Origin: an uncultured Granulosicoccaceae bacterium | Lineage (GTDB): Bacteria > Pseudomonadota > Gammaproteobacteria > Granulosicoccales > Granulosicoccaceae | DNA length: 38,593 bases | Assembly (NCBI GenBank): GCA_937928685.1 | Contig: CALGJU010000232.1 | Location: 1-38,593, forward strand | Direction of reading: 5' to 3' | In this document: one piece after another, positions 4,652-34,142 of the stretch | Layout: each line of letters starts with the position of its first letter | Numbering within the stretch: position 1 is the stretch's first letter | The notes under the pieces: generated by a model | Databases searched by the model: none | The model's input: the letters and a program-made list of their open reading frames with translations, nothing else | Told to the model about the DNA's origin: nothing | Translations under genes and position numbers: made by a program

Positions 4652-5419
4652 CTAGCTACCCTCTGCTTTTATCGTGTTGTCGTTAGTATCTGTTTGCACA
4701 GATTGCTCACTGTGAGCAATTTCTGTTAATCGACCTAGTATTTGCAGGTAGGCTACCACTGCATCCATTTCTGTTACCCGTTGCGAATCACCATCAAACA
4801 CCCGCACCGAAGTTGCCGGGCCGTAGCGTGCGATCAAACCAGCTACATCATCTGAAGAAGGAGTGGCCTGGGCGACGGCATCCCGGTTCGCGAGGTTGAT
4901 CATAGAGTCTTCATAAGGCACTCCAACCCGACTCATGGCCTTCAGGTTGCCTCGTAGGTCTGTGGTGTTGAGTTCATTTTCCAGTAACCAGCTGTAGGCA
5001 GGCATGATTGATTGCGGTACCACATCACGCGGATTGACAAGATGGCGCGTGTGCCACAGATCAGAGTACTTTTCACCGATACGCGCAAGGTCAGGCCCTG
5101 TTCGTTTAGAGCCCCACAACATCGGGTGATCGTATTGTGATTCAACTGCCCGCGAGTAGGGTCCATAACGATCGACCTCATCCTTAAGCGTTCGAATCAT
5201 TTGTGAGTGGCAAGCGTAGCAGCCCTCACGGATGTAAATGTTCCGCCCTGCGAGCTCCAGCGGTGTGTAGACCCGCATGTCAGGAGCGTGCTCCACGGTG
5301 TCATCGATGGTAAAAAGCGGCGCTATTTCAACCAGGCCGCCAATTGCCGAGACGGCGATGATACCCAGTGCCAGTACAATTGAGTTGCGTTCTATCTTAT
5401 TATGTAACGTGAAAATCAT
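4652..5419 (-). CDS. ccoO: cbb3 cytochrome oxidase subunit II (monoheme cytochrome c CcoO)
   Basis: A 255-aa membrane-anchored cytochrome c. An N-terminal helix is followed by IYIREGCYACHSQMIR, which holds the single CxxCH heme site. Further on are RTGPDLARIG and HLVNPRDVVPQSIMPAY; the methionine in SIMPAY is the expected axial ligand. The start overlaps the ccoN stop by ATGA. It is somewhat longer than the usual 200-240 residues, with a polar C-terminal tail. Confidence 0.95.
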   Translation of the reverse strand: MIFTLHNKIERNSIVLALGIIAVSAIGGLVEIAPLFTIDDTVEHAPDMRVYTPLELAGRNIYIREGCYACHSQMIRTLKDEVDRYGPYSRAVESQYDHPMLWGSKRTGPDLARIGEKYSDLWHTRHLVNPRDVVPQSIMPAYSWLLENELNTTDLRGNLKAMSRVGVPYEDSMINLANRDAVAQATPSSDDVAGLIARYGPATSVRVFDGDSQRVTEMDAVVAYLQILGRLTEIAHSEQSVQTDTNDNTIKAEGS

Positions 5420-7062
5420 GCTGTGGCTTCTCCGGTGGGAACAGACAATGGGCCAACAGATGCATCGTTAGTTACATTGCGTGCAAGTGGCACATGCCTG
5501 ACCGTCATAACAATGTTATAAAAAGCCAGCGCCGCCCCGACCAGAAAAAGGAACCCTCCGAATGCCCGTGCAACGTAATACGGGTGCATGGCAACGAACG
5601 ATTCAAGAAACGAATAAGTCAATGTTCCGCTTTCATTATAGGTGCGCCACATAATTCCCTGTGTTATTCCAGCATTCCACATTGCGATCAGATAAATGAT
5701 TGTGCCTGCGATAGCGAGCCAGAAGTGTACTTCTATTAATATCAGTGAATACATACGTTCGCGATGCCAGATCCAGGGTACCAGGCTATAAAACGTCCCA
5801 AACACAATAAACGCCACCCAACCCAATACGCCGGCATGCACATGGCCAATCGTCCAGTCGGTGTAATGAGACAGGGAGTTCACCGGGCGTATCGCCATGA
5901 ACGATCCCTCGAAGGTTGATATGCCATAGAATACCGCCGCGACCATCATGAATCGTAAGGTGGCGTCATCACGTACCCTGTGCCATGCACCGTTGAGGGT
6001 CATAAGCGCATTGCCCGCAGAGCCCCAGCTTGGCACTAACAACATGACTGAAAAGGTAACACCCAGTGTTTGCACCCATTGAGGAAGTGCGGTGTAGTGC
6101 AGGTGGTGTGATCCTGCCCACATATACATGAACGTAATACCCCAAAAACTGATGATAGACATTCGGTAGGAATAAATGGGTCGCTCAGCGCGTTTAGGCA
6201 GGTAGTAGTACAGCATGCCAAGAAACCCTGACGTCAGAAAGAACGCGACTGCATTGTGCCCGTACCACCATTGCGTCATCGCATCCTGTACTCCTGAAAA
6301 GAGGGAATAGCTCTTGGATCCCAGGAAGGATACCGGCACTGCGAGGTTGTTGATTATATGCAGCACGGCCACCACAAGAATGAAGGCCAGGTAGTACCAG
6401 TTGGCCACGTATATATGGGGCTCTTGACGACGCGCGAGCGTACGCAAATACAACACCAGATAAGTAACCCATACAATGACAAGCCAGATGTCTGCGTACC
6501 ATTCAGGTTCAGCGTATTCTTTAGATTGGGTAATGCCCAACAGGTAGCCGGTAGCGGCGACTAAACAAAATAAGTTAAAACCCAGTAGCACAAACCAGGG
6601 GCTAAGCTGATCGGGAAGACGGGTTCGACTGGTACGTTGCACCACGTGAAAGGAAGTTGCTATAAGTGCGTTGCCGCCAAAGCCGAAAATCACCCCCGAG
6701 GTATGGACTGGCCTTAAACGTCCGAGACTGGCCCACGCATAGTCAAAAGTGAGCTCCGGATAGGCAAGTAGCAGCGCCACCCAGACACCAACAAACATAC
6801 CGAGCATGGCCCAAATTAATGACAGATAAATACCCGCCTTAATCGGCGCATCATAATAGTAGGTCAGCTCCTCTGCTGTCGCTTCCGGTTGCGAACGAAT
6901 AGAAAACAGAGCGCCGAGCGTTACCAGAGCGGCCGTGACGATCACGGCGCCCTGAAGTTGAAAACCGATGTCGTGGCCGGCGAGTGCCATAATCAGACCG
7001 ACACCTAAAAGGAGTAAAGTGATGCGTGTAGCGAGTGTTCGCTCTGAAAAAGTCATTTGCAT
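5416..7062 (-). CDS. ccoN: cbb3 cytochrome oxidase catalytic subunit CcoN
   Basis: A 548-aa heme-copper oxidase subunit I of the C type, the proton-pumping O2-reducing core with very high O2 affinity. Heme and copper ligands are visible: RPVHTSGVIFGFGGN and SFHVV (low-spin heme side), WWYGHNAVAF (CuB histidine with the nearby tyrosine region YYYLP), GSHHLHY (two CuB histidines) and GHVHAG (heme ligands). There are about 12-14 helices, including an extra N-terminal hydrophobic pair before the core. The start could be ATG 7062 or the ATG two codons on. The promoter region upstream has an FNR-type site centred 82 bp before the start, with TATGCT 31 bp from the site centre. Confidence 0.97.
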   Translation of the reverse strand: MQMTFSERTLATRITLLLLGVGLIMALAGHDIGFQLQGAVIVTAALVTLGALFSIRSQPEATAEELTYYYDAPIKAGIYLSLIWAMLGMFVGVWVALLLAYPELTFDYAWASLGRLRPVHTSGVIFGFGGNALIATSFHVVQRTSRTRLPDQLSPWFVLLGFNLFCLVAATGYLLGITQSKEYAEPEWYADIWLVIVWVTYLVLYLRTLARRQEPHIYVANWYYLAFILVVAVLHIINNLAVPVSFLGSKSYSLFSGVQDAMTQWWYGHNAVAFFLTSGFLGMLYYYLPKRAERPIYSYRMSIISFWGITFMYMWAGSHHLHYTALPQWVQTLGVTFSVMLLVPSWGSAGNALMTLNGAWHRVRDDATLRFMMVAAVFYGISTFEGSFMAIRPVNSLSHYTDWTIGHVHAGVLGWVAFIVFGTFYSLVPWIWHRERMYSLILIEVHFWLAIAGTIIYLIAMWNAGITQGIMWRTYNESGTLTYSFLESFVAMHPYYVARAFGGFLFLVGAALAFYNIVMTVRHVPLARNVTNDASVGPLSVPTGEATA

Positions 7063-7136
7063 ATTATTACGGCCAATCTTAAGTTTCGTGCCACTTAGCT
7101 ACGGAGGGCAGCATAAGGCTTTCAGTGGAAATCAAT

Positions 7137-7150
7137 TTGACTTGAATCAA
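7137..7150. promoter_or_regulatory. FNR/Anr-type site for the cco operon
   Basis: TTGACTTGAATCAA matches TTGAT-N4-ATCAA at 9 of 10 positions. On the minus strand a -10-like TATGCT (7110-7115) is centred 31 bp downstream, the class II FNR geometry. It lies between divergent ccoN and usp. Confidence 0.8.
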
Positions 7151-7172
7151 CTGGTGGTTATTGATGCGTCAA

Positions 7173-7186
7173 TTGATTCTGATCAA
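7173..7186. promoter_or_regulatory. FNR/Anr-type site, perfect half-sites
   Basis: TTGATTCTGATCAA matches the consensus at all 10 positions. It is 98 bp (centre) before the usp start at 7278. No strong -10 hexamer sits at the ideal distance; TTTAAT (7201) and GTTAAT (7212) are nearby candidates. Confidence 0.8.
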
Positions 7187-7252
7187 GTTACCAGCGTGAG
7201 TTTAATGAGAAGTTAATTCAAGCACTAAAAAAACCGAATTTCAATTTAATTT

Positions 7253-7266
7253 GTGATTAAAATCAA
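7253..7266. promoter_or_regulatory. Possible third FNR-type site close to the usp start
   Basis: GTGATTAAAATCAA matches the consensus at 8 of 10 positions. It ends 11 nt before the usp ATG, a position that would suit repression or fine tuning rather than activation. Confidence 0.4.
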
Positions 7267-7277
7267 AGGTTAAGGCA

Positions 7278-7703
7278 ATGACTACATACAACAATATACT
7301 GATTCCGGTAGATTTCTCAGAAGCGAGTGCAATGGCTGTAAAAAGAGCGCTTGACAGCGAAATATCCACAGCTACCCAGATAACCTTAGCGCATATCGTC
7401 GACTACATGCCACCGGCCTACGTTAGGCCCGAAATACCAGAGATCTATGCCTCAGAAGATCTCATGAAACAGCGCGCACAGAAGCATCTTGATGAGTTTA
7501 TACAGCAAATCGGCCTCACAGGGTGCAAATCAATTATAGAGTTTGGGCGTGCCAAATCCCGTATATTAAAACTGCTTAGCGAGAACAACTTTGATCTGGT
7601 GATACTTGCCAAGCACAACCGCACTGGCGTTCAGAAGTTACTCGGGTCCGTGAGTAACGCCGTCGCAAACGAAGCGAAGTGTGATGTTTTGATTGTTCAT
7701 TGA
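7278..7703 (+). CDS. Universal stress protein, UspA family
   Basis: A 141-aa single Usp domain, starting NNILIPVDFSEAS and ending CDVLIVH. The usual ATP-binding G-2x-G-9x-G-S/T loop is only partly kept: AKHNRTG replaces the GTHGRTG-type start while LLGSVSN remains, so nucleotide binding is uncertain. The ATG at 7278 has AAGG just upstream. It is followed 49 nt later by a second Usp gene, probably co-transcribed. FNR-type sites upstream suggest induction at low oxygen, as known for Usp genes controlled by Anr in Pseudomonas. Confidence 0.9.
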   Translation: MTTYNNILIPVDFSEASAMAVKRALDSEISTATQITLAHIVDYMPPAYVRPEIPEIYASEDLMKQRAQKHLDEFIQQIGLTGCKSIIEFGRAKSRILKLLSENNFDLVILAKHNRTGVQKLLGSVSNAVANEAKCDVLIVH

Positions 7704-7752
7704 TAACCTATCAGAGTGTCCACTATATCAATCAAGAAGTCGGGAGAGCTGA

Positions 7753-8154
7753 GTGTTAAGTTACGAAAGAATTCTGGTACCTATTGATTTCACCGAAATA
7801 AGCACTGCAGCTCTTGCTAAGGCAGCACACCACTCCGAAGCCAGTGGCAGCAGACTTTACGTTGCTCACATTGCTGCGCCAACGCCTGTGTTGTCACAAG
7901 TGACACGTGATTCGGTACAACAGGAGATATTGCAGAAAATAGATCAGATGCTTGATGATGCAGAGGTCGGGTATAGCGAGAAAATCGTCGAATTCGGTGA
8001 TACTGTTCCGACCCTTTTAGATATTATTTTAAAACACAAAATTGATCTGGTGGTCATGGGTACTCACCATTTCAACTCAATGGATGAACATAATTCCGTC
8101 ACCAAAGCGATGGGAGAAAATATCGAGTGTGACATTCTGATTCTACATAAATAA
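7753..8154 (+). CDS. Universal stress protein, UspA family (second copy)
   Basis: A 133-aa single Usp domain, starting YERILVPIDFTEIS, with VVMGTHHF near the C-terminus. The start is GTG at 7753, with GGGAG at good spacing upstream. The glycine/serine ATP-binding loop is lost (GTHHFNSMDEHNSV), so this copy probably does not bind ATP in the canonical way. It forms a pair with the preceding Usp; such paired copies often differ in nucleotide binding and may heterodimerise (inference). Confidence 0.88.
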   Translation: MLSYERILVPIDFTEISTAALAKAAHHSEASGSRLYVAHIAAPTPVLSQVTRDSVQQEILQKIDQMLDDAEVGYSEKIVEFGDTVPTLLDIILKHKIDLVVMGTHHFNSMDEHNSVTKAMGENIECDILILHK

Positions 8155-8230
8155 GCTTATATGTCAGGTACCCGTTAAGCGAAAACCAATAGATTGGTAT
8201 CAATAACACACCTCAGGTTGCTAATTGATT

Positions 8231-8326
8231 ATGCAAACATCGCTGCCAGTGGTAAGCACCCTACTTGCTATCGCAATTACGGCTCTTTTTTGCTGGCGCA
8301 TTGTAGACAGTTCCCACGACCGTTAG
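8231..8326 (+). CDS. Possible 31-aa single-helix membrane protein
   Basis: An ATG-initiated ORF too short for the track. It translates to MQTSLPVVSTLLAIAITALF followed by a short charged end, which would be one membrane helix. The ribosome-binding site is weak. It sits between the usp pair and the FNR-type site of the next gene. Size and topology resemble small oxidase-associated peptides, but I see no family match and it may be chance. Confidence 0.25.
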   Translation: MQTSLPVVSTLLAIAITALFCWRIVDSSHDR

Positions 8327-8332
8327 TGATTG

Positions 8333-8346
8333 TTGACTTCGATCAA
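8333..8346 (+). promoter_or_regulatory. FNR/Anr-type site for the metallo-hydrolase gene
   Basis: TTGACTTCGATCAA matches 9 of 10 positions. TAGATT (8368-8373) is centred exactly 31 bp downstream as the -10 candidate. The start codon is 63 bp from the site centre. Confidence 0.8.
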
Positions 8347-8402
8347 AGAAATCACCCGGGAAGCTTGTAGATTCGTGATTGCCAATGAACAGGAGCCACA
8401 TC

Positions 8403-9266
8403 ATGAATCCCGTAGTGACAGCGTTTTTCGATGAACCCACCAATACGGTATCCTACGTAGTTCGTGAGCCGGATGGTAATCACTGCGCCATCATTGATTC
8501 AGTGCTTAACTACGATCCCAGCTCGGGTCGTACAAGTACAGATTCAGCCGATAAAATTGTTTCGTATGTACTTGAGAATGGTTTTAAGGTCGATTGGCTA
8601 CTGGAAACACATGCACACGCTGACCATCTGAGTGCGGCACCGTACTTGAAGAAACGCCTGGGCGGAAAAACTGCTATTGGTGAGCATATATGTGAAGTAC
8701 AAAAAACGTTCTCAAAATTGTTTAATTTTGAGAGTGACTTCCCGCCAGACGGGAGTCAATTTGACCACTTATTTGGTGATGCTGAAACCTTTGCGATAGG
8801 CGATCTATCGGTAATTACGATGCATACTCCTGGGCATACTCCCGCTTGTATCTCTTATGTTTCGGGTGATACAGCGTTCGTAGGTGATACCCTGTTTATG
8901 CCTGACTACGGCAGCGCTCGCGCTGATTTCCCCGGTGGGGATGCTACAACATTGTATCAATCTATTCATAAAATACTGACATTACCTGACCACACAAGGC
9001 TCTTTCTGTGTCATGACTATAAAGCCCCTGGCAGAGATGAGTATCAGTGGGAAACCACTGTCGAAGCACAACGGCAAAGCAATATTCATGTCGGTGATAA
9101 CAGCAGTATGGATGAGTTTGTTTCCATGCGTACGGAAAGAGACGCTACCCTTAGCATGCCAGCGCTGCTTCTGCCTGCCGTGCAGGTTAATATTAGAGCA
9201 GGGGAGCTACCACCGGCTGAAGAAAACGGCGTGGCCTATCTAAAAATACCGGTTAACCAGCTCTAA
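8403..9266 (+). CDS. Metallo-beta-lactamase fold hydrolase, persulfide dioxygenase (ETHE1/Blh)-like
   Basis: A 287-aa protein. The track start is a TTG; the ATG at 8403 has AGGAG 7 nt upstream and is preferred. Metal-site motifs: ETHAHADHLS, MHTPGHTPACISYV, GDTLFMPDYG and LCHDYKAPG. The ETHxHADH plus GHTxxCxSY pattern and the RADFPGGDATTLYQSI segment fit the ETHE1/Blh branch, which are mononuclear-iron glutathione-persulfide dioxygenases that detoxify sulfide. Blh members additionally process sulfide for respiratory protection. Placement beside the cbb3 operon makes sense because sulfide poisons heme-copper oxidases (inference). No rhodanese domain is fused. Confidence 0.85.
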   Translation: MNPVVTAFFDEPTNTVSYVVREPDGNHCAIIDSVLNYDPSSGRTSTDSADKIVSYVLENGFKVDWLLETHAHADHLSAAPYLKKRLGGKTAIGEHICEVQKTFSKLFNFESDFPPDGSQFDHLFGDAETFAIGDLSVITMHTPGHTPACISYVSGDTAFVGDTLFMPDYGSARADFPGGDATTLYQSIHKILTLPDHTRLFLCHDYKAPGRDEYQWETTVEAQRQSNIHVGDNSSMDEFVSMRTERDATLSMPALLLPAVQVNIRAGELPPAEENGVAYLKIPVNQL

Positions 9267-9275
9267 CCGAGGCTG

Positions 9276-9353
9276 TCGAAATAATTCGTTTTATCGCCTT
9301 AATACACTGCATATAAAGACATAACGGCTATTTTTCTGGTCGCCTTGTAAATA
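9276..9353 (-). repeat. Dispersed intergenic repeat, copy A
   Basis: The reverse complement of this 78-bp stretch aligns with 32428-32504 with about 9 mismatches and one 1-nt gap by eye. Shared cores include ACAAGGCGACCAG, GTCTTTATATGCAGTGTATT and AACGAATTATTTCGA. It fills almost all of the convergent gap between the metallo-hydrolase and the DUF4404 gene. Confidence 0.85.
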
Positions 9354-9359
9354 GTCATA

Positions 9360-9623
9360 CTAGATGCCCATTTTTCCAAGCGTATCTATGATTTCACGTA
9401 ACGTACCTTCTGCTATCGGGTATCTTTGGGCGAATTCTATTTCCAGCTGTTTTGCCTGATCGATAAGTGTGTGTTTATTATTGTTATCGATACCAGCGCT
9501 GATGTATGGCTCTATGTGACGTTCGAATTCACGTAGTTTTTTGATAGTCGTGTCATCCAGCTGTGCTTTGTCTACTTCCTGCGACAACTGGATGATCAGT
9601 TGCTCTATGTTTTTATTTGTCAT
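9360..9623 (-). CDS. DUF4404 family protein
   Basis: An 87-aa soluble, mostly helical protein. The C-terminal part, with LEIEFAQRYPIAEGTLREII and a final LGKMGI, fits DUF4404. Its function is unknown. The gene follows the two-domain Usp on the same strand after 87 nt, so it may belong to the same FNR-controlled unit. Two copies of TGTGAAATACAA lie in the gap (9657 and 9674). Confidence 0.75.
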   Translation of the reverse strand: MTNKNIEQLIIQLSQEVDKAQLDDTTIKKLREFERHIEPYISAGIDNNNKHTLIDQAKQLEIEFAQRYPIAEGTLREIIDTLGKMGI

Positions 9624-9710
9624 GGAATGGTCTCTCGTGAATTAGGGTTTTGGTAATGTGAAATACAACTTACTGTGAAATACAAAAGGCTACTATCAGC
9701 AGATAACGAA

Positions 9711-10523
9711 TTAATGTGAAACAAACAATGGAACAGAGACGTCCCGAATCATGGTGCGCGAAGCGCCTCCAAGAATATACTCACGTATTCGCGAATGGCC
9801 ATAAGCGCCCATAACCACCATGTCAGAGTCAAATCTGCCTGCCAGCTCCAGCAATCGATCGCCAATTTCCGAATCGTCTAAACTGCTGTTGAGTAGATCG
9901 AAAGTAACATCATAACGGGTTAGATGCGCTTCCAGCGCAGCACAACAGCTGTCTTCCTGCGTAGACTTCTGTGTATTAAAAGAGACGATGTTCACAGACT
10001 TGGCCCGGGTAAGTATTGGCATGGCATCGTGTAGTGCGCGTGTAGATTCCCGGGTACCGTTCCAAGCGACCAATACATTCTCCCCCAGTGCATTCTGATT
10101 GAGTTCTTTTGGCACAATCAGTACAGGTCGGCCGCCGCCCAGAGTCGCATTTGCAGGCAGCGCTACGCGCTGTTCGTATTGGTGTCCGGTTTCCGGCTTG
10201 CCCACAACAGCAATGTCACAGGTGCATGCATGCTTTATTAATTGATGGCTTGCGTCGCCGGTGGTTTCTATATAGTTAGCTGTCACGCTATCTTCACCAA
10301 AAAAGGAACCAAATAGTGTGCGAGACTTGCCTGCTGCTTCACCTTCGCGTTCTTCGAATTCCTTTATCAAGTCGGGGTTCATATCTGCATCAAAATATTC
10401 ATAGCTTAGTGGTTGTTTTATATGTAGCCCGGTAATATGCGACGCGAATATTTTTGCAAGCTTCATCGAGGCCCATAATCTGGAGCTGGGATTGCCGTTT
10501 AAGTATACGAGAATATCTTTCAT
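9711..10523 (-). CDS. Two-domain universal stress protein
   Basis: A 270-aa protein with two Usp folds. The first begins KDILVYLNGNPSS. The second begins VLVAWNGTRESTRALHDA and ends with MGAYGHSRIREYILGGASR, a near-complete G-x2-G-x9-G-S type ATP loop. The track start is a TTG; the ATG at 10523, with GGAG 7 nt upstream, is preferred. Tandem Usp proteins of this type occur in many proteobacteria and are frequently induced by low oxygen. The promoter has an FNR-type site 79 bp before the start. Confidence 0.9.
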   Translation of the reverse strand: MKDILVYLNGNPSSRLWASMKLAKIFASHITGLHIKQPLSYEYFDADMNPDLIKEFEEREGEAAGKSRTLFGSFFGEDSVTANYIETTGDASHQLIKHACTCDIAVVGKPETGHQYEQRVALPANATLGGGRPVLIVPKELNQNALGENVLVAWNGTRESTRALHDAMPILTRAKSVNIVSFNTQKSTQEDSCCAALEAHLTRYDVTFDLLNSSLDDSEIGDRLLELAGRFDSDMVVMGAYGHSRIREYILGGASRTMIRDVSVPLFVSH

Positions 10524-10595
10524 AGCGTTCTCCAATGATATTTGGAATCTTAACTTTGTGCAGCGGTCATTCTCTTATTTCTTGGCTACCAGTTA

Positions 10596-11886: not shown

Positions 11887-13782
11887 ATGGTACACAGCAC
11901 CAGTAAAAGTCAGCTTGACTCAATTCTTGATGCAGTTGACGCTGCAATAATAACGATTGACCAATCCGGCATCATTGTTAATTGTAATGACGCCACCACA
12001 AGAATGTTTGGCTACCCAAGGGACAAGCTGGTAGGAAAAAACGTAAAAATACTGATGCCCCAGCCGTACAAGCAAGAACATGACGGATATATCGAAAACC
12101 ATTTAACCACAGGCGAGAAGCGAATCATTGGCACTGGCAGAAAAGTCAGTGGGCAGCATCAGTCTGGCAATATTTTCCCGGTGCACCTGTCTGTCGCGAA
12201 GTTTGAAGACGAAGGCAGACTATTCTTTACCGGCATCCTTCACGACTTAACCGAACTGGAAGAGGTTCGTTCGACAAGTCAAAGGCTGGGGCAGATTGTT
12301 GACGAATCTGTCAATGAGATTTACACATTTGATGTTAAATCCCTACAGTTTACCAATGCTAATCGTGCAGCAATTAAAAACCTGGGCTATACACTGGAGC
12401 AGCTAAAAACGCTGACCCCTGTTGGTATTGTTTTACGGTTGACAGAAGAAGCGCTACTCAACACGCTTAAACCTCTACTCAATGGTAATTCTGAACGTGT
12501 GTCACTTCATACTCGCTTGGTGCGCAGTGATAAAACACAATACGAAGCAGAGGTTAACTTACATTTATCTCACGCTTTCGAATCACCGGAGTTCGCCGCC
12601 ATCGTGCAGGATGTTACTGATAAGAATCGTATGATTGAGTCCTTGCATAACAGCCAAAAAATTGAGTCTATCGGTAACTTGACCGGTGGAATTGCACATG
12701 ATTTTAACAATATCCTGACCGTGATTATCGGCAATCTGGATCTGCTGGAAATGGACAAATATGATACTGACGAGACTGAACTGCTGGATGAGGTAAAAGG
12801 CGCAGCTGATATGGGGGCAAGACTGACGAAACGGCTTTTAACATTTGCACGTCGGAGTCCGCTGTCTCCTAAAACGATAAGTGTAAACAACCTGATAATC
12901 GATCTCACAGATATGCTGTCGCGCACCCTGGGCGGCAATATATCGCTTGAAACTCAGCTTGCTGATAAGTTGTGGCGTACCAACGTTGATATTTCAGCGC
13001 TGGAGAATTCCCTGGTAAATTTAGCTATCAATGCACGTGATGCCATGCCTGACGGAGGTCGTCTGATCATAGAGACGAGCAATTGTCAGCTCGATGATGA
13101 AACAATACTAGGTAAAAACATCAATCCCGGTGATTTTGTAAAGATATCAATCACCGATACTGGCAGCGGCATACAGGAAGACCTGCGTGACACACTTTTT
13201 GAGCCCTTCGTTACCAGTAAAAAGGGTGGCAACGGTACAGGCCTTGGCTTAAGTATGGTCTATGGATTTGTACATCAATCCGGCGGTACGATCTCTGTCT
13301 ACTCTGAGTTGGAAATAGGCACTACATTTTCAATGTATTTACCAAGAGAGCAGGGAGAGAGCTCGAAAAGTACAGAACAAATCACCTCGACGTCAGCGAT
13401 TATTGGTCAGGGTAAAAGAATCCTTATCGCTGAAGATGACGATAATGTACGAAAATTGACTATAAAGCGTCTGGAAGCACTCGGGCATCACGTTATACCG
13501 GCTTCGAATGGACATGAAGCACTGGCACTGTTTGAAGCAGACCCGTTTGTGGATATTGTTTTCAGCGACGTAGTGATGACAGAAGGCATGTCCGGCTATG
13601 ATTTAGCGCTGATAATTCGTGAACTCAGCCCGGCTACGCCAGTCCTGCTAACGTCGGGTTTTGCAGAAAACATCATCAGCGATGGTCAGCTTGAGGCATC
13701 TGGATTGACGTTATTGCGTAAGCCGTATCATCAAAGCGATTTAAAGTTCGCCCTTGAAGACTTGCTAAAGGATAGCTATTAA
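11887..13782 (+). CDS. FixL-like PAS hybrid histidine kinase with C-terminal receiver domain
   Basis: A 631-aa soluble protein with no membrane helices. Order: PAS1 (about 5-125), PAS2 (about 130-245), HisKA with GGIAHDFNN (His about 269), HATPase (N box NARDAM, G1 DTGSGI, G2 GTGLGLS), receiver (acidic pocket EDDD, phospho-acceptor in FSDVVM at about 561, lysine in RKPYH). PAS1 closely follows the FixL heme-PAS: His65 in EHDGYI aligns with heme-ligand His200 of Bradyrhizobium FixL, Ile80 with Ile215 and Arg85 with the O2-contacting Arg220 (IIGTGR). Some related PAS domains keep this His without heme, so heme binding is likely but unproven. No FixJ-type partner is adjacent; output may pass from the built-in receiver to a separate regulator. 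It has no FNR-type site upstream. Confidence 0.88.
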   Translation: MVHSTSKSQLDSILDAVDAAIITIDQSGIIVNCNDATTRMFGYPRDKLVGKNVKILMPQPYKQEHDGYIENHLTTGEKRIIGTGRKVSGQHQSGNIFPVHLSVAKFEDEGRLFFTGILHDLTELEEVRSTSQRLGQIVDESVNEIYTFDVKSLQFTNANRAAIKNLGYTLEQLKTLTPVGIVLRLTEEALLNTLKPLLNGNSERVSLHTRLVRSDKTQYEAEVNLHLSHAFESPEFAAIVQDVTDKNRMIESLHNSQKIESIGNLTGGIAHDFNNILTVIIGNLDLLEMDKYDTDETELLDEVKGAADMGARLTKRLLTFARRSPLSPKTISVNNLIIDLTDMLSRTLGGNISLETQLADKLWRTNVDISALENSLVNLAINARDAMPDGGRLIIETSNCQLDDETILGKNINPGDFVKISITDTGSGIQEDLRDTLFEPFVTSKKGGNGTGLGLSMVYGFVHQSGGTISVYSELEIGTTFSMYLPREQGESSKSTEQITSTSAIIGQGKRILIAEDDDNVRKLTIKRLEALGHHVIPASNGHEALALFEADPFVDIVFSDVVMTEGMSGYDLALIIRELSPATPVLLTSGFAENIISDGQLEASGLTLLRKPYHQSDLKFALEDLLKDSY

Positions 13783-13800: not shown

Positions 13801-16239
13801 ATGTTTCAAAGAATAGAGACAGCCTACAAAAAGGTGCGCAGAATATTTAGTCGCAGTGAATGGCTGGTGAGGCTGCTTGGTCTCGACAGACATAACAATT
13901 CATTATTGAACAACAAGGAATATGCAGCGCACCCGGTTGGATTAATATTGGTTCAGATTGATGGTCTGGGCCACGATCAGCTTAAACAGGCTATTGATAG
14001 TGGTGAGCTGCCGTTTATAAGAAGGCTACTTAATAAAGAACATTATCAATGCCTTCCGCTCTACAGCGGTTTGCCAAGCTCAACACCAGCAGTGCAGGGC
14101 GAACTTTTCTATGGTGTGAAAAACATAGTGCCGTCATTCGCCTTTAGACGCAAAGCAGACGGCAGGCAGACGCGCATGGTTGAACCTGCAGCGGCTCACC
14201 GTATACAGAAAGAACTTGAGGCGCGCGGTACAGCACTTTTAAAAAATGGCAGTGCATACTGTGATATTTATACCGGTGGTGCAAGAGAGTCACACTTTTG
14301 TGCCGCTTCATCCGGATGGAATACCCTGTTTAGCTGGTCGGCGGTACGGCACTGGGGGATAGTTTTATTGTTGAACATTCCCACGTTGGTGAAAGTCGTT
14401 GCTTTGATGGTGATAGAAATATTATTAGCAGTAAAGGATCTGTTCAAGGGCATTATAGACGGAAAATCTGCTATAGCAGAAATGAAGTCCCTTGTAGCAC
14501 GTGTGATGGTTAGTATTCTGCTGCGTGATCTTGTCACTATTGGTGCAACTGTCGATATTGCGCGCGGCCTCCCGGTGATCCACCTAAACTATCTGGGATA
14601 CGATGAGCAAAGTCATCGCAGGGGCCCCGACTCACCCTTTGCTCACTGGACACTCAAGGGCATAGATAAATGCATAGAGAAATTATGGAGAGCCAGCCAT
14701 CACAATATACATCGTCACTACGATCTTTGGGTATATTCAGATCACGGGCAAGAGCGAACCACCCCTTATACAAGGCTTACCGGCAACACTATTAACTCAG
14801 CGGTAGCTTTCGCATATGACGATATTCTGCGGAAACACCAGCCGACTACAACACGTGTTTCAAGGAATTCACTGACAGAAGAACAGTTGAACTCAGGCAA
14901 TGCTTGCTACGAAAAACTCGATGTAAGTGGCACTAATTCATCCCAGCCAGGTAAGACAGCACATTCCCCGGTCACTATCGCTATAGGACCGGTAGGGCAC
15001 GTATACATCGACAATAAGCGTGCGTTATCGTTGCGATCGGATATAGCGTCTCAGTTGGTACTGCATTATAAAGTACCCGCGGCAGTGCTTATGTGTTCCG
15101 ATCGATTGGAAGTGCACATGGCGGCTGGCGTATCGTATCTTCCCGGTGATGGCAACAGGGTCTTTGGTGCTTGCCATCCGTTTCTCAAGGAACTATCAAG
15201 TGATCTGCTCGAGATGTGCCGACACGTGGATGCAGGCGATATTGTATTACTCGGCTGCGTTAACGGCGTGGAGTCGGTGTCGTTTAAGACAGAGAATGGC
15301 GCACATGCCGGAATCGGACCCAATGAAACCAAGGCATTCGCGTTAATTCCCGCGGACACCGACTTGAGTGATGATAAAAAAGATTATATCCGTCCGGCAG
15401 TGTTACACCGCGCCGGGCTTAGAATACTAAGCCCGCAATCGCAAAAAATATCCGTTTCTGCTGGTGCAGACAAAATTCCAAAGGCGGACATTACTCATCA
15501 GAATCACAGCTTAAAGGTAATGACTTATAACGTGCACAGTTGCATTGGCATGGACAATATTGCATCGCCGGAGCGTATTGCTCGTGTTATATCGCGCTAT
15601 AGACCTGACATCATTGCGCTACAGGAGCTTGATGTTAACCGTACAAGAAGCAACAATATTCATCAGGCGAGTTTGATTGCCGAAATGCTGGATATGGATT
15701 TTTATTTTCATCCCTCAATCAGTGAAGCACATGAGGAATACGGTGATGCCATTATCAGTCGCTTTCCTATGCAACTGAGAAAGGCTGCGGCACTTCCCAA
15801 GCCGACGTCTATGATTGATATAGAAACCCGTGGTGCACTTTGGGTTACAGTAGATTATTTTGGTGACAAATTGCAGATCTTTAACACACACTTGGGATTA
15901 CGCAACAAGGAGCGATTACTACAGACAGAAGCACTGCTCGGTGATCAGTGGCTACATCACCCGGATTGCATCGGGCCCTCAATACTGTGTGGTGATCTGA
16001 ATGCGGTAGCAAGCTCTCGGGTAGTGCAACGATTCAGCCCGGAGTTTACAGATGTACAAACACACCTGCCACGCAATATGCGGAAGAAGACATTTAGCTC
16101 AAGAGTTCCGACCGTGCAGATTGACTATATACTGGCAAATGAGAACTTTAAAACTCATTCTGTGGAGGTTCTGGATAGTGAGTTGACCAGAGTGGCAAGT
16201 GATCATTTGCCGATGATGGCGTCACTTACGCTGCAATAA
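13801..16239 (+). CDS. Fusion of a nucleotide-pyrophosphatase/phosphodiesterase-like domain and an endonuclease/exonuclease/phosphatase domain
   Basis: An 812-aa protein with two hydrolase modules. Residues about 40-540 are an alkaline-phosphatase-superfamily domain with a metal Asp in VQIDGLGHD, a likely nucleophile Thr in SSTPAVQGE, YDEQSHRRGPDS, SDHGQE and the late His of NGAHAGIGP, so the two-metal site looks complete. A hydrophobic stretch near 180-215 may associate with the membrane. Residues about 570-812 are an EEP domain with TYNVHS, ALQELD, NTHLG, CGDLNA and SDHLP, all catalytic motifs intact. No signal peptide is evident. The substrate is unknown; EEP relatives of this kind include lipid phosphodiesterases and nucleases. 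The start is 18 nt after the kinase stop, so co-transcription with it is likely. Confidence 0.8.
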   Translation: MFQRIETAYKKVRRIFSRSEWLVRLLGLDRHNNSLLNNKEYAAHPVGLILVQIDGLGHDQLKQAIDSGELPFIRRLLNKEHYQCLPLYSGLPSSTPAVQGELFYGVKNIVPSFAFRRKADGRQTRMVEPAAAHRIQKELEARGTALLKNGSAYCDIYTGGARESHFCAASSGWNTLFSWSAVRHWGIVLLLNIPTLVKVVALMVIEILLAVKDLFKGIIDGKSAIAEMKSLVARVMVSILLRDLVTIGATVDIARGLPVIHLNYLGYDEQSHRRGPDSPFAHWTLKGIDKCIEKLWRASHHNIHRHYDLWVYSDHGQERTTPYTRLTGNTINSAVAFAYDDILRKHQPTTTRVSRNSLTEEQLNSGNACYEKLDVSGTNSSQPGKTAHSPVTIAIGPVGHVYIDNKRALSLRSDIASQLVLHYKVPAAVLMCSDRLEVHMAAGVSYLPGDGNRVFGACHPFLKELSSDLLEMCRHVDAGDIVLLGCVNGVESVSFKTENGAHAGIGPNETKAFALIPADTDLSDDKKDYIRPAVLHRAGLRILSPQSQKISVSAGADKIPKADITHQNHSLKVMTYNVHSCIGMDNIASPERIARVISRYRPDIIALQELDVNRTRSNNIHQASLIAEMLDMDFYFHPSISEAHEEYGDAIISRFPMQLRKAAALPKPTSMIDIETRGALWVTVDYFGDKLQIFNTHLGLRNKERLLQTEALLGDQWLHHPDCIGPSILCGDLNAVASSRVVQRFSPEFTDVQTHLPRNMRKKTFSSRVPTVQIDYILANENFKTHSVEVLDSELTRVASDHLPMMASLTLQ

Positions 16240-16272: not shown

Positions 16273-16334
16273 TCACCTGTTTGATGTACACCAGTACGTT
16301 ATTGAAAACCGAACATCAAAAAGGGCACGGAACA

Positions 16335-18242
16335 ATGGGTAAAACGATAGGAATTGATCTAGGTACTACGAATTCATGTGTGGCGGTGATGGAGGGTGAT
16401 AGGCCAAAGGTGGTTGAAAACAGTGAAGGCGCACGTACTACGCCCTCTGTAATCGCTTATACCGCTGATGGTGAAACCCTGGTAGGGCAATCAGCGAAAC
16501 GCCAGGCGGTTACTAATCCGCACAATACTTTATATGCAATTAAGCGTTTAATCGGTCGTCGCTTTGATGATGATGTAGTGCAAATGGATATAGACAAATC
16601 ACCATTCAAAATTATCAAGGCTGACAATGGAGATGCCTGGGTAGAAGCCAATGGTAAAAAGATGGCACCGCCAGAGATTTCAGCGCTGGTGCTGGCTAAG
16701 ATGAAACAAACCGCAGAGGAATACCTGGGTTATTCAGTAACTGACGCTGTCGTTACGGTACCGGCTTACTTTAATGATTCTCAGCGTCAAGCGACGAAAG
16801 ATGCCGGGCGCATCGCCGGGCTGGACGTAAAACGTATTATCAATGAGCCCACAGCCGCGGCGCTTGCGTATGGTTTGGATAAAAAAAGCGGTGATCAAAA
16901 AGTTGCTGTGTTTGATCTCGGTGGCGGCACCTTCGATATTTCTATCATCGAAATTGCTGAGGTAGAAGGAGAACAACAGTTTGAGGTACTGGCGACCAAC
17001 GGAGATACCTTTCTGGGCGGTGAGGATTTTGATCTCGCGATCATAAATTACCTGTCGAATGATTTTAGAAAGGAATCAGGAGTCGATCTTACCGCTGATC
17101 CGGTGGCGTTACAGAGGCTCAAAGAAGCCGCTGAAAAAGCCAAGATCGAGCTCAGCTCTAACCAGCAAACTGATATCAACTTACCCTATATTACAGCGGA
17201 TGCAAGTGGCCCTAAGCATCTGAACTTAAAACTCACTCGTGCGAAACTGGAGTCATTGGTATCTGATCTGGTAGACCGGAGCCTTGCGCCCTGCAAGCTT
17301 GCTGTCAAAGATGCAGAGCTAAATATTTCCGATATTGACGATGTAATTCTTGTTGGTGGTCAAACGCGAATGCCATTGGTTCAACAGAGAGTGAAAGAAC
17401 TATTCAACAGAGAACCGCGTAAAGACGTCAACCCGGATGAAGCCGTTGCCGTCGGTGCTGCGTTACAAGGTGCAGTATTATCTGGTGATGTCAGTGATGT
17501 ACTTCTACTGGATGTCGCTCCGCTCTCACTGGGGATTGAGACCATGGGCAGTGTGATGACCAAACTAATTACCAAGAACACTACCATTCCAACCAAAGCC
17601 AAAGAAACCTTTTCAACGGCAGAGGATAACCAGGCGGCAGTGACAGTGCATGTTCTGCAAGGTGAGCGGGAGCGAGCGCAGGACAACAAGTCATTAGGCC
17701 AGTTCAACCTTGAAGATATTCCTGCGCAACCTCGTGGCCTACCGCAGATTGAAGTAACGTTTGATATTGACGCCAACGGGATCCTAAGCGTTTCAGCCAA
17801 AGATAAGAAGAGCGGCAAAGAGCAGTCGATCACCATTAAAGCGTCCTCTGGCCTGTCTGACGACGAGGTCAAGCGTATGATCAAAGAGGCGGAAGAAAAT
17901 GCAGTATCCGATCAGAAGTTCCGTGCACTGGCTGATTCACGCAATGAGGCGGATGCCCGTATACACAGCAGTAAAAAGTGGGCAGACGAGCAGGGCGATA
18001 CACTTGCAACCGCCGACAAGGAAGCAATTAGTGATGCGGTTATCGCGCTTGAACAAGATATTAAGGGTGATGATAAGGGCAAAATTGATGAAGGTGCTGC
18101 GTCTTTGAAGGCGCTGGTTGATAAATTAACGCAGCAAAGCGTTCAACAAGATCCCGCGCCGAGCCAGTCGGGCGCGACGAATGAACCTGCAACAGAGGAC
18201 GTTATCGACGCTGAGTTCGAAGATGTTAGCGATGATCGATGA
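16335..18242 (+). CDS. dnaK: Hsp70 chaperone DnaK
   Basis: A 635-aa full-length DnaK. It has the ATPase motifs [41 protein letters not shown] and [11 protein letters not shown], the substrate domain with VLQGERERA, and a C-terminal tail ending near EFEDVSDD. The track start adds 18 residues; the ATG at 16335 gives the canonical N-terminus [13 protein letters not shown]. It is not next to grpE or dnaJ. Instead it faces an operon with cbpA and cbpM, and it has an FNR-type site upstream rather than a visible sigma-32 promoter. It may therefore be a second, low-oxygen DnaK in addition to a housekeeping copy elsewhere (inference). Confidence 0.95.
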
Positions 18243-18729: not shown

Positions 18730-19677
18730 TCAGGATGCAATCTGTCGTGGATTAAAATCAGGCCATGCTGCCTGCATTTTTTTATACAGTTTCTTTTGAT
18801 CTTCATTTTCAGCGACCGGCAAAACGACAGACAGCACAACGAGCTGATCACCGGGAGGTTTGCCCGGCAGGCCCCGGCCTTTTAGACGTAATGTTTGGCC
18901 TTGTTTTGCATTTTCAGGGATTTTAAGCGCAACATTTCCGCCAAGCGTTGGAACTTCTATACTGGTGCCAGTGGATGCCTCCCATGGAGCAAGAGGTATG
19001 TTGACCGTCACATCGCGGCCGTGAAGAAGAAACACCTGGTCGAATGAAATGTTTACTTCAATAATCAGGTCACCGCTGCTGCCGCCACCAATCGGTGGCC
19101 CGCCTTGACCTTTAAGACGGATTTTCTGACCGTTGATAATGCCTTGCGGCAGGGTGACTTTCAGCTCTTTATTTTCCGAATGTATTGTACCGTCCGCGTG
19201 ATGCACAGGCATTTGTAAGGTTAACGGTAGGGAAGCGCCTCGATAAGCATCATGTAACGTGACAGTGATTTTTGCATTTATATCTTGCCCATTAACTGAA
19301 AACCGCTCTTCGGCGTGGCGCGATTGTGCCCCGTAACCCTGGTTCGGATAGAAGGCATTAAATATGTCTGATAATGACTCATCAAAATTACCGTCAGAAT
19401 ATTGCCTGTGACTACCCTGTGTAGCTCGTGGCTGCTGATCACCAGGTCTCCGACCTTGTTTGGCCATTTCCCTACGTTGATCAAACTCGGCTCGCTTATC
19501 TTTGTCTTTTAGTACGTTCCACGCCTCCGATACTAGTTTAAACTGTTCCTCAGCGTTGTCTTCCTTGCTTACATCGGGATGATAGAGACGCGCGAGCTTA
19601 CGATAAGATTTTTTTATCGTGGCAGTATCTGCATCACCTGATACACCCAGAATTTTGTAGTAGTCAAGGAATTCCAT
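18730..19677 (-). CDS. cbpA: CbpA, DnaJ-class co-chaperone
   Basis: A 315-aa protein with an N-terminal J domain starting MEFLDYYKILGVS and containing the HPD triad in LYHPDVS. A Gly/Gln-rich linker follows, then two C-terminal beta domains (KGQGGPPIGGGSSGDL and LRLKGRGLPGKPPGD). There is no cysteine-rich zinc domain, which separates CbpA from DnaJ. It stimulates DnaK ATPase and delivers clients. The gene lies between a GNAT-like gene (10 nt upstream) and cbpM, and faces dnaK. Confidence 0.92.
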   Translation of the reverse strand: MEFLDYYKILGVSGDADTATIKKSYRKLARLYHPDVSKEDNAEEQFKLVSEAWNVLKDKDKRAEFDQRREMAKQGRRPGDQQPRATQGSHRQYSDGNFDESLSDIFNAFYPNQGYGAQSRHAEERFSVNGQDINAKITVTLHDAYRGASLPLTLQMPVHHADGTIHSENKELKVTLPQGIINGQKIRLKGQGGPPIGGGSSGDLIIEVNISFDQVFLLHGRDVTVNIPLAPWEASTGTSIEVPTLGGNVALKIPENAKQGQTLRLKGRGLPGKPPGDQLVVLSVVLPVAENEDQKKLYKKMQAAWPDFNPRQIAS

Positions 19678-19687
19678 GGAATGTTTT

Positions 19688-20236
19688 TTATACCTCCGTC
19701 ACTTCAGCCGCGCGCTCTTGTTCGTTAACTTTTAACGAGTAAATAATATCGCCGGAATTGCCATTGCGTTGGCGATCTGTCATGTTAAATTCATGCGCCA
19801 GGTTGTTCATAAACACGTTGTTTTCACTATCTGTTGTATACAGGTTTTTGACCCCGTTTATTTTCGCCTCAACGAGCAAAGAATCAAATAGCTCATGGGG
19901 AATCCGGGTTCCGCGGTATTTCTTTTGTACCACCATTCCCATTTCATGATCTCCGGTTTTGTTATTCAACCTATAAAACCCGATGGCGACCATTATTGAT
20001 TCAGTCCCCTCATAGGTAACTCTAAATACTTCAGAATCCGGATCATCGTCTTTACATAGTTGATTCAGTTTTATCTCAACACCGTTATTTTTATGCCCGT
20101 AAGCGTAAAACCCGGGTTTTTCCTGAACCTCTTTGATAGTCTGACCGGACAGGTCATTTTTCCCACGAAAAGGCGCTATTAGAAACATTTTCCCGTTTAG
20201 AAAAAACTCCTTACTTTCCTGACCCTTAGTTGCCAT
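19688..20236 (-). CDS. GNAT-like N-acetyltransferase domain protein
   Basis: A 182-aa soluble protein. The central part contains EMGMVVQKKYRGTRIPHELF, which fits GNAT motif A (beta strand, then a Q/R-x-x-G-x-G/A-like acetyl-CoA loop), followed by GVKNLYTTDSENNVFMNNLA, which fits motif B. The loop reads YRGTRI, a slight departure from the consensus, so activity is not certain. It is the first gene of an FNR-controlled unit with cbpA and cbpM, so a link between acetylation and chaperone or metabolic control at low oxygen is possible. GNAT domains of similar look occur in protein acetyltransferases such as Pat, but no nucleotide-binding or acyl-CoA-synthetase domain is present here. Confidence 0.6.
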   Translation of the reverse strand: MATKGQESKEFFLNGKMFLIAPFRGKNDLSGQTIKEVQEKPGFYAYGHKNNGVEIKLNQLCKDDDPDSEVFRVTYEGTESIMVAIGFYRLNNKTGDHEMGMVVQKKYRGTRIPHELFDSLLVEAKINGVKNLYTTDSENNVFMNNLAHEFNMTDRQRNGNSGDIIYSLKVNEQERAAEVTEV

Positions 20237-20339
20237 TTATTTCTCCCCAAGGTAGTTCCAACGACTATTCCAAGACCGGTTGGTCTCGCTCTTACAAAAA
20301 CTGATATGGCCAGTAGACACTATGCGCTTCTTATTCAGG

Positions 20340-20353
20340 TTGATTTACATCAA
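20340..20353. promoter_or_regulatory. FNR/Anr-type site for the GNAT-cbpA-cbpM unit
   Basis: TTGATTTACATCAA matches all 10 positions. On the minus strand TCTACT (20312-20317) lies 32 bp downstream. The start codon is 110 bp from the site centre. Confidence 0.78.
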
Positions 20354-20428
20354 GTCAGTCTGTTTGAGACGACGTGCAGCAATCCGCCTTGGCTCTGCGG
20401 TCACTAAATTTGATCTGTATTGCCCTTC

Positions 20429-20442
20429 TTGATCAAAATCAA
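20429..20442. promoter_or_regulatory. FNR/Anr-type site for the host-attachment family gene
   Basis: TTGATCAAAATCAA matches all 10 positions. TAGATT (20464-20469) is centred exactly 31 bp downstream, and the ATG is 64 bp from the site centre. Confidence 0.82.
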
Positions 20443-20499
20443 TTTGAATTCTAATACCGAGAGTAGATTGAGAGGCCAAGCAAAGTAAGGCGGAACATA

Positions 20500-20949
20500 A
20501 TGGCAATTCGTGATACCTGGGCAATAGCGGCTAATGGTGGTCGGGCAAAAATCGTAAGAAATCTTGGGTCTGAATCTGGTGAGCGGATAGATGCGTTTAA
20601 AACTGAACACACCAAGGCGGGTGACCTGATGACCGACCGTGCAGGTCGTACATTTTCAACAGTCGGCAAAAGCAGATCGGCCTTGGAACCACACTCAGAC
20701 CCGGTGCGCAATAACGAAAGGTTATTTGCAGAGCAGCTCACTGACTATCTGTTAAAGCATTTTACCGATAAGCAATTTGGGTCACTGGTGGTGACTGGCG
20801 CCCCGCGTACGCTGGGTGATCTTCGTGCGGCGTTTCCGACACGACTTACTGATTCAATAATTGTTGAAGCAGACAAGGACTATACGCAATTGTCTGACCA
20901 CGAGCTGCCGGGAAAAATACAGGCACTTGTGAAGCAGGCTACGACTTAG
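20500..20949 (+). CDS. Host attachment protein family (PF10116-like)
   Basis: A 149-aa soluble protein. WAIAANGGRAKIVRN near the start, RAGRTFSTVG in the middle and LVVTGAPRTLGDLRAAF toward the end fit the family named for an Agrobacterium attachment protein. The fold resembles release-factor-like (eRF1 domain) proteins, and the family name probably does not describe its role here. The ATG at 20500 has AAGG upstream. It stands alone behind a perfect FNR-type site, so low-oxygen induction is predicted. The function is unknown. Confidence 0.8.
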   Translation: MAIRDTWAIAANGGRAKIVRNLGSESGERIDAFKTEHTKAGDLMTDRAGRTFSTVGKSRSALEPHSDPVRNNERLFAEQLTDYLLKHFTDKQFGSLVVTGAPRTLGDLRAAFPTRLTDSIIVEADKDYTQLSDHELPGKIQALVKQATT

Positions 20950-21109
20950 GGTGTCTGGAGCTGTCGATGTATTAACAGAGGTTTGAAATGACAGACTGAC
21001 ATATTTTTAAATACACCTGGAATTAGAGAGGGGAGCCCGGGTAACTGTGCACAATTTCCAAGCTAACGTACCTAAATGAATGCAGAGGTAATCTCAGTAA
21101 CTCTTGCAA

Positions 21110-21511
21110 TTACCCGGCAACAGTATCAAAAAGCGCCCTGAGTACGTCACTTCGGCTTACCTGACCAAGCAGTTTATGGTTTTCAACAACTGGTATACGT
21201 CGAAAGCGACTGTTAATAAAATGTAAAGCGGCATCGGTGAGTTCTGTATCCGGAGCAATTGTTTCTACCGGGGACACCATATAGTCACTGACCAGTCCTC
21301 CCCACACGTGATGATAGTGAGCGTTCAATGCTGCTTTTAAGCAGTCGCGTTTTGATAGAACGGCGAGTAAATTTCCGTCACCATCAAGAACTGGTGCGCC
21401 AGAGATATTTCTTCTTAGCAATTCGGTGGTGGCACTGAGTATCTCGGTATCCGGCGTCACCGTATAGAGGTCAGTGATCATTATTTCTTTGATAAAATGT
21501 GGTTTAATCAT
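21110..21511 (-). CDS. CBS domain pair protein
   Basis: A 133-aa protein made only of two CBS repeats: VTPDTEILSATTELLRR with GAPVLDGDGNLLAVLSKRD, and IAPDTELTDAALHFI with RRIPVVENHKLLGQVSRSD. CBS pairs bind adenine nucleotides and act as energy sensors. The start overlaps the nqrM stop by 8 nt, so it is the last gene of the Nqr-like operon and is probably translated with it. That makes a regulatory link between adenylate state and the redox complex plausible (inference). A stand-alone CBS protein is likewise part of the mycobacterial DosR regulon. Confidence 0.88.
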   Translation of the reverse strand: MIKPHFIKEIMITDLYTVTPDTEILSATTELLRRNISGAPVLDGDGNLLAVLSKRDCLKAALNAHYHHVWGGLVSDYMVSPVETIAPDTELTDAALHFINSRFRRIPVVENHKLLGQVSRSDVLRALFDTVAG

Positions 21512-33551: not shown

Positions 33552-34142
33552 ATGATGAACTTAAATAATTTCTTTCCTTCAATTCGTAAACAAGCACTTC
33601 GTCCTGATCCGTTTAAGGATTTGCAAGTGGAAATCGCTAGGGTGTTTGATCAGTTTAATGATTTTCGGCCTGTCTTAAGCGATCTAGACGCGACTGACAA
33701 TGGGGGTTATCTGCGAGCGCCTAATATCGATATCACGGAAACAGATACTGCACTTGAAATAACAGCAGAGATACCCGGCGTTAATGAAGAAGACGTTGAC
33801 GTACAGTTGAATGGAGATTTACTGACAATTACCGGAAAACGAGAAGAGGAGATTAATGACGAAGGTAAAAATTACCGCATAGTGGAAAGATCCAGCGGTA
33901 GTTTTAAACGCACAATCCGCCTGCCTTTTGATCCTGATACTGAAAAAGTAGACGCTGAATTAAATGCCGGAGTACTCACATTGGCAATAGAAAAACCAGT
34001 TGAAGTAATCGATAAGGTTAAGAAAATTGCAATTAAAAAAGGTAATGACAAAGCGCTTGGCGGTGAAAAAAAGCAAACCGCTAAAGCGACGCCAACGAAG
34101 GCTAGTTCAAAAGACAAGGAGGAGGAGGTGGCAACAAGTTAG
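33552..34142 (+). CDS. Hsp20/alpha-crystallin family small heat shock protein
   Basis: A 196-aa holdase chaperone. The N-terminal arm (FPSIRKQALRPDPFKDLQVE) is followed by an alpha-crystallin domain (about 58-150) with ITAEIPGVNEEDVDVQLNG and LTITGKREEE, and the A-x-L-x-x-G-V-L motif as AELNAGVLTLAIEK. The IAI after it is a likely I-x-I oligomerisation motif. The C-terminus is an unusually long lysine-rich tail of about 35 residues. AGGAGATA is the ribosome-binding site. The second codon is also ATG. FNR-type control recalls HspX of the DosR regulon. Confidence 0.93.
   Translation: MMNLNNFFPSIRKQALRPDPFKDLQVEIARVFDQFNDFRPVLSDLDATDNGGYLRAPNIDITETDTALEITAEIPGVNEEDVDVQLNGDLLTITGKREEEINDEGKNYRIVERSSGSFKRTIRLPFDPDTEKVDAELNAGVLTLAIEKPVEVIDKVKKIAIKKGNDKALGGEKKQTAKATPTKASSKDKEEEVATS

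Follow-up and report, generated by a model that had tools for sequence, protein, structure and literature searches.

Why does one bacterial protein carry two phosphoester hydrolase domains, and does its position close behind a FixL-like kinase bear on its function? These questions are raised by an ORF in the window (the whole stretch of 38,593 nucleotides analysed here, from an uncultured Granulosicoccaceae bacterium), in which an alkaline-phosphatase-superfamily (AP) domain is followed by an endonuclease/exonuclease/phosphatase (EEP) domain. The features referred to below are as follows.

13801..16239, + strand: AP-EEP fusion gene, 812 aa (single ORF; N-terminus conserved in homologues)
13804..13875, + strand: N-terminal basic helices, aa 2-25, a possible membrane-surface helix (AlphaFold2 secondary structure, read by us as amphipathic)
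13801..15444, + strand: predicted NPP-type alkaline-phosphatase-superfamily phosphodiesterase domain, aa 1-548 (PF01663, residue conservation, NPP alignment, Foldseek)
14335..14565, + strand: hydrophobic helical insertion within the AP domain, aa 179-255, a probable membrane-binding hairpin (hydropathy, homologues, model)
15445..15501, + strand: disordered linker, aa 549-567 (pLDDT < 50)
15502..16236, + strand: EEP domain, aa 568-812 (PF03372, invariance in 54 homologues, Foldseek)
11887..13782, + strand: PAS histidine kinase with a receiver domain (FixL-like), 18 bp upstream, context only
16281..18242, + strand: dnaK, downstream, context only (HSP70 at the same place in a relative)

Identification of the AP-EEP protein

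The region 13801-16239 (+) was a single ORF of 812 aa with no internal stop, and its opposite strand was rich in stop codons. The start at 13801 appeared to be sound because the N-terminus (MFQRIE...) was common to relatives. A chance ORF or a frameshift artefact was rejected on the basis of the single open frame and of homologues with the same layout. Pfam matches of the protein were limited to PF01663, PF03372, and PF23226: Phosphodiest (PF01663) was found with an E value of 4e-11 (43.5 bits against a cut-off of 23), and Exo_endo_phos (PF03372) at aa 574-802 with an E value of 4e-21 (76.3 bits against a cut-off of 24.5). The latter profile was matched at positions 1-225 of 225, corresponding to the whole EEP domain. 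The EEP half also exceeded the cut-off of the Pfam model for the C-terminus of PGAP2IP, with a better score for PF03372. PDB matches to Armadillo-repeat proteins were regarded as noise, as no single stretch passed alone, and a phage origin was rejected after a PHROG search without a match.

The AlphaFold2 model (54 sequences) contained two compact domains (pLDDT 86.6, pTM 0.88), and the AP half folded alone gave a pLDDT of 87.8. In Foldseek, the EEP half retrieved EEP structures (4ruw, 3mpr, nocturnin, and TDP2), while the AP half retrieved phosphonoacetate hydrolase, Xanthomonas NPP, ENPP6, ENPP7, and autotaxin. The preliminary description of this DNA, in which the ORF was read as a fusion of two phosphoester hydrolases, was therefore borne out by the single ORF, the two Pfam domains, the model, and the structural matches.

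Active sites and the hydrophobic hairpin

The metal and nucleophile set of the AP domain consisted of D54, T95, D268, H272, D314, H315, and H502, and that of the EEP domain of N577, E609, H697, D732, N734, D775, D801, and H802. All 15 residues checked were kept in 54 full-length homologues with a sole change, D268 to H in two sequences; the AP metal site, which had been described as apparently complete, and the full set of EEP catalytic motifs thus held up, the eight EEP residues being invariant. The substitution of this metal ligand occurred in two related planctomycetes (L050 and L057), and D was found at the position in 52/54. Loss of catalysis in either half was rejected because of this conservation. 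Judging from its residues, the 812-aa protein has two phosphoesterase sites, both intact, and phosphodiesterase activity is predicted for the NPP-type AP domain. The segment with D268/H272 and D314/H315 aligned to the same motifs in Xanthomonas NPP; T95 and H502 were assigned from motif and conservation, not from superposition.

The AP domain contained a hydropathy peak of 2.5 at aa 187-205, and in 51 of the 54 homologues a 19-residue stretch within the hairpin region exceeded 1.6 (Kyte-Doolittle). Three helices were modelled by AlphaFold2 in the insertion at aa 179-255. From its hydropathy and the model, this hairpin probably binds the membrane.

Distribution and evolution of the fusion

Homologues were collected from the GTDB species collection by one scan with two short peptide patterns. 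Most of the 64 loci obtained encoded the same AP-EEP protein of ~800 aa, and were found in about ten phyla, including Pseudomonadota, Thermodesulfobacteriota, Omnitrophota, Planctomycetota, Verrucomicrobiota, Fibrobacterota, Elusimicrobiota, Lentisphaerota, Sumerlaeota, and Nitrospirota, although these loci were mostly from metagenome bins, whose taxon labels may be unsure. A local fusion limited to one lineage was thereby rejected. The gene was present in 10 of 368 other gammaproteobacterial genomes sampled. A cultured species, Saccharospirillum salsuginis (L028), was among its carriers. Within the window's genus, it was found in two of the 14 genomes searched (the window genome and G007), indicating a patchy distribution there.

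AP-only genes branched inside the fusions in the tree, and the divergence of the AP and EEP halves was parallel (Mantel r 0.85, with 0/2000 permutations as high). Separately encoded halves, for which a search had been suggested, were found in a Hydrogenedentota locus (L034), in which AP and EEP were two overlapping genes, and in a Desulfobacterales locus (L067) with five neighbouring genes for EEP, a GT4 glycosyltransferase, AP, a VTT protein, and a glucoamylase-like protein. At L084 (5860-7432), the AP frame was split into two short ORFs, and the adjoining EEP gene was intact. The AP-EEP fusion is a conserved, widespread, old, and common architecture, and no description of it was found in the literature searched.

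The GT4 partner and other neighbouring genes

Upstream sequence of 900 bp or more was available for 65 loci. In 41 of these, from nine named phyla, a GT4 glycosyltransferase gene immediately preceded AP-EEP on the same strand or was joined to it in frame; in 21/65 loci, such a GT4 was absent from the fetched stretch. The GT4 and AP-EEP genes overlapped by exactly 4 bp in 16 loci. In eleven Omnitrophota genomes, GT4, AP, and EEP formed one ORF (frames of about 1210-1274 aa). Loci with this triple arrangement were L053 (4687-8403), L121, L122, L131, L133, L135, L137, L138, L140, L141, L144, and L150 (the last fetched in part). Among the loci fetched from the phylum of L053 (285 genomes sampled), 11 had GT4-AP-EEP in one frame versus 16 with AP-EEP and no in-frame GT4. 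A GT4-AP fusion without EEP was observed at L044/L124.

The best NCBIfam model for all five GT4 partners tested was alpha-monoglucosyl-diacylglycerol synthase (NF049988), at 140-169 bits compared with a curated cut-off of 400 bits. Since these scores were far below the cut-off, diacylglycerol is a putative acceptor. The same model gave 42-59 bits for three GT4s of generic type from the window genome, and for a fourth, from the relative G390, it was not among the best 25 families. PimA, which acts on a lipid, was among the best PDB matches of the GT4 partner.

A membrane protein with a VTT domain was encoded nearby in 17 loci, and a protein of ~760 aa with no Pfam match and weak similarity to glucoamylase in 27. 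A gene for a CDP-alcohol phosphatidyltransferase was a neighbour in three Omnitrophota. The conserved ~760-aa protein, which weakly resembles bacterial glucoamylase/oligosaccharide amylase, adjoined GT4, for example at L075 (3722-6007) and L114 (5347-7677). In an upstream scan of 15 loci and three window starts, nearly all contained no Pho box above chance (two were borderline, p 0.025); control by phosphate starvation through a Pho box was unsupported, and a role in phosphate starvation is therefore not claimed.

Stand-alone EEP proteins

The closest stand-alone EEPs were proteins of rhizobial megaplasmids, with 43-47% identity to the EEP half. Three annotated cases from rhizobia were inspected, and in each the EEP gene adjoined phospholipase-D-like and UPF0104/LPG-synthase-like genes; at L096, L097, and L118, rhizobial megaplasmids carried a YbhP-like EEP, a PLD-like, and a UPF0104 gene in a clsB-type lipid cluster. 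A more distant clostridial stand-alone EEP that was inspected was without such PLD/UPF0104 neighbours. The rhizobial order corresponds to the layout of ybhP-clsB-ybhN in Escherichia coli, which has been named as an operon (PMC9241728). The identity between YbhP and the EEP half was 25%. The GT4/double-phosphodiesterase module also offers a starting point for working out what stand-alone YbhP-type EEP proteins do.

Genomic context in the window lineage

In the closest relative, G007, of the same genus (L021), the order of kinase, AP-EEP, and dnaK was kept, whereas the gap between kinase and AP-EEP was about 340 bp, compared with 18 bp in the window. A FixL-like kinase beside AP-EEP was seen only in the window's genus. 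As the link was confined to one genus and loosely spaced, it represents a local stress-island arrangement, and a conserved operon with the kinase was rejected. Universal stress proteins, GNAT, Hsp20, DnaJ, CBS, and cbb3-oxidase-like genes were recognized from translations at 4652-10535, 18730-21511, and 33552-34142 of the window. Such gene content suggests that the window may be a stress/low-oxygen island, and the proximity of the FixL-like kinase, left unexplained in the preliminary description, is best explained by local placement in it. Just a few AP-EEP loci had genes for universal stress proteins, CBS, and Hsp20 nearby. A stress-gene neighbourhood was rejected as a trait of the AP-EEP family; it characterizes the family of the window and a few others.

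GT4 was not adjacent to AP-EEP within the window, and a protein search of the window genome (77% complete) revealed no GT4 partner and no glucoamylase-like protein; the pathway may therefore be incomplete in this organism, or a contig may be missing. In G007, the GT4 and glucoamylase-like genes lay side by side on another contig. The same genome contained a second AP-domain gene without EEP (L080, 6019-7689), beside genes encoding GNAT, universal stress, and KefB-like proteins. In the Granulosicoccaceae genome G390, GT4, the glucoamylase-like gene, and an AP gene (cut by the contig end) were found together, behind genes for a universal stress protein and GNAT, and a small gene that, in our own reading, appears HPF-like.

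Proposed function

We propose a role in membrane-lipid metabolism for this protein, as a bifunctional phosphodiesterase that is associated with the membrane on its cytoplasmic side and whose product would be used by the co-encoded GT4 in most bacteria with the gene (estimated probability, roughly 0.5). AP-EEP is probably part of an undescribed pathway from phospholipid to sugar lipid. With its hydrophobic hairpin as a membrane anchor, the NPP-type AP domain would cut the phosphodiester of a lipid headgroup, using Thr95 as the nucleophile together with a two-metal site; a second phosphoester, located either on that lipid or on the headgroup set free, would be cut by the YbhP-like EEP domain; and the GT4 (alpha-monoglucosyl-diacylglycerol-synthase-like) would glycosylate the product, diacylglycerol or a related acceptor, to a sugar lipid. 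Such a scheme would be a functional analogue of the phospholipid-to-glycolipid pathway of PlcP-Agt. We infer four of its elements, namely, the lipid substrate, the order of steps, the cytoplasmic side, and membrane binding. The fused or overlapping GT4 genes suggest that the phosphodiesterases act on the cytoplasmic side and in the same pathway, because the sugar nucleotide for a GT4 fused to them would come from the cytoplasm. Evidence from the GT4 partner and the triple fusions, together with the VTT, CDP-alcohol transferase, and PLD/ClsB contexts, speaks for a lipid headgroup, and a lipid role is also supported by the conserved hairpin and by the lipid enzymes ENPP6 and ENPP7 among the fold neighbours of the AP half. 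It had previously been supposed that both domains may act in sequence on one substrate, such as a lipid headgroup or a nucleotide polymer: a shared substrate is plausible, but nothing pointed to the polymer. More tentatively, it is possible that one cytoplasmic membrane-bound protein, in Omnitrophota the GT4-AP-EEP polypeptide, turns phospholipid directly into an alpha-glucosyl lipid in a widely distributed bacterial pathway, independent of PlcP-Agt and with no tie to the Pho regulon. To our knowledge, many uncultured phyla, among them Omnitrophota, Planctomycetota, and Verrucomicrobiota, lack assigned enzymes for glycolipid synthesis, and the module of GT4 and two phosphodiesterases, even as one polypeptide, is a concrete candidate for it.

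The AP superfamily also contains transferases (LtaS, OpgB, EptA, and PIG-N/O), and GPI-anchor assembly offers an analogy with its GT4 PIG-A, AP-type ethanolamine-phosphate transferases, and EEP-type CWH43/PGAP2IP. The AP domain could then be a headgroup transferase, by which phosphoglycerol or phosphoethanolamine would be moved from a phospholipid to the glucolipid of GT4, giving a phosphoglycolipid, while the EEP domain would remove it or recycle the by-product; the GT4 linkage, the triple fusion, and the score of the EEP half against the PGAP2IP model are in line with this. We consider such a transfer unlikely, since the AP half was nearest to NPP-type hydrolases by profile and fold, PF03372 outscored the PGAP2IP model, and the GT4 fusion suggests the cytoplasm, whereas LtaS, EptA, and PIG-N act outside it.

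As a counterpoint to the lipid assignment, the closest folds of the AP half included nucleotide pyrophosphatases (NPP) and phosphonoacetate hydrolase. Hydrolysis of NDP-sugars is known for NPPs, and nucleotide phosphatases, for example nocturnin, are found among the EEPs. In such a role, the NPP domain might split a dinucleotide or UDP-glucose and the EEP domain take the next phosphate, two steps by which the neighbouring glycosyltransferase would be regulated. However, a hydrolase fused to a glycosyltransferase would destroy its own donor, and both the conserved hydrophobic hairpin and the contexts with VTT, CDP-alcohol, and PLD genes suggest a membrane setting, making this role rather improbable. 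Equally improbable, in our estimate, is that each domain has a substrate unrelated to that of the other and that the fusion serves co-expression or scaffolding only, the protein of the window lineage having been co-opted into a stress/hypoxia island. In several lineages AP alone would be sufficient, as it occurred with GT4, and no EEP in the fetched stretch, at L027, L044, L068, and L076, and the window and G390 loci contained universal stress protein, GNAT, and chaperone genes, as such a history would predict; on the other hand, both sites were invariant in 54 sequences (except for D268), the halves diverged in parallel, and a split EEP can stay in the same gene cluster (L067 and L034).

Comparison with known systems

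PlcP-Agt is a system for phospholipid-to-glycolipid remodelling (PMC4796936). AP-EEP is similar in that a phosphodiesterase gene lies beside a lipid glycosyltransferase gene (41/65 loci), with diacylglycerol and then a glycolipid as the expected products. It differs in having two hydrolase domains, in being sometimes fused to GT4, and in the lack of a Pho box in the regions scanned. Membership of PlcP was rejected because PF00149, which we take to be the superfamily of PlcP (calcineurin-like metallophosphoesterase), was not among the Pfam matches. With the NPP family (PF01663: Xanthomonas NPP, ENPP6, ENPP7, and autotaxin), AP-EEP shares the fold, the Thr nucleophile, and the metal-site motifs, but it has, in addition, a hydrophobic helical hairpin and an EEP domain that looks active, and identity was 9-14% in the Foldseek alignments. 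In ENPP1-3, a phosphodiesterase domain is likewise followed by a domain of nuclease-type fold, which belongs to another family and is inactive, whereas the EEP residues of AP-EEP were intact. Escherichia coli YbhP and the rhizobial EEPs, 25% and 43-47% identical to the EEP half, respectively, lie in lipid-gene neighbourhoods with PLD and UPF0104 genes, but stand alone without the AP domain to which EEP is fused here. Finally, the partner GT4 resembles alpha-monoglucosyl-diacylglycerol synthase (NF049988), its best curated family over most of its length, and differs from the members of that family in scoring below the curated cut-off.
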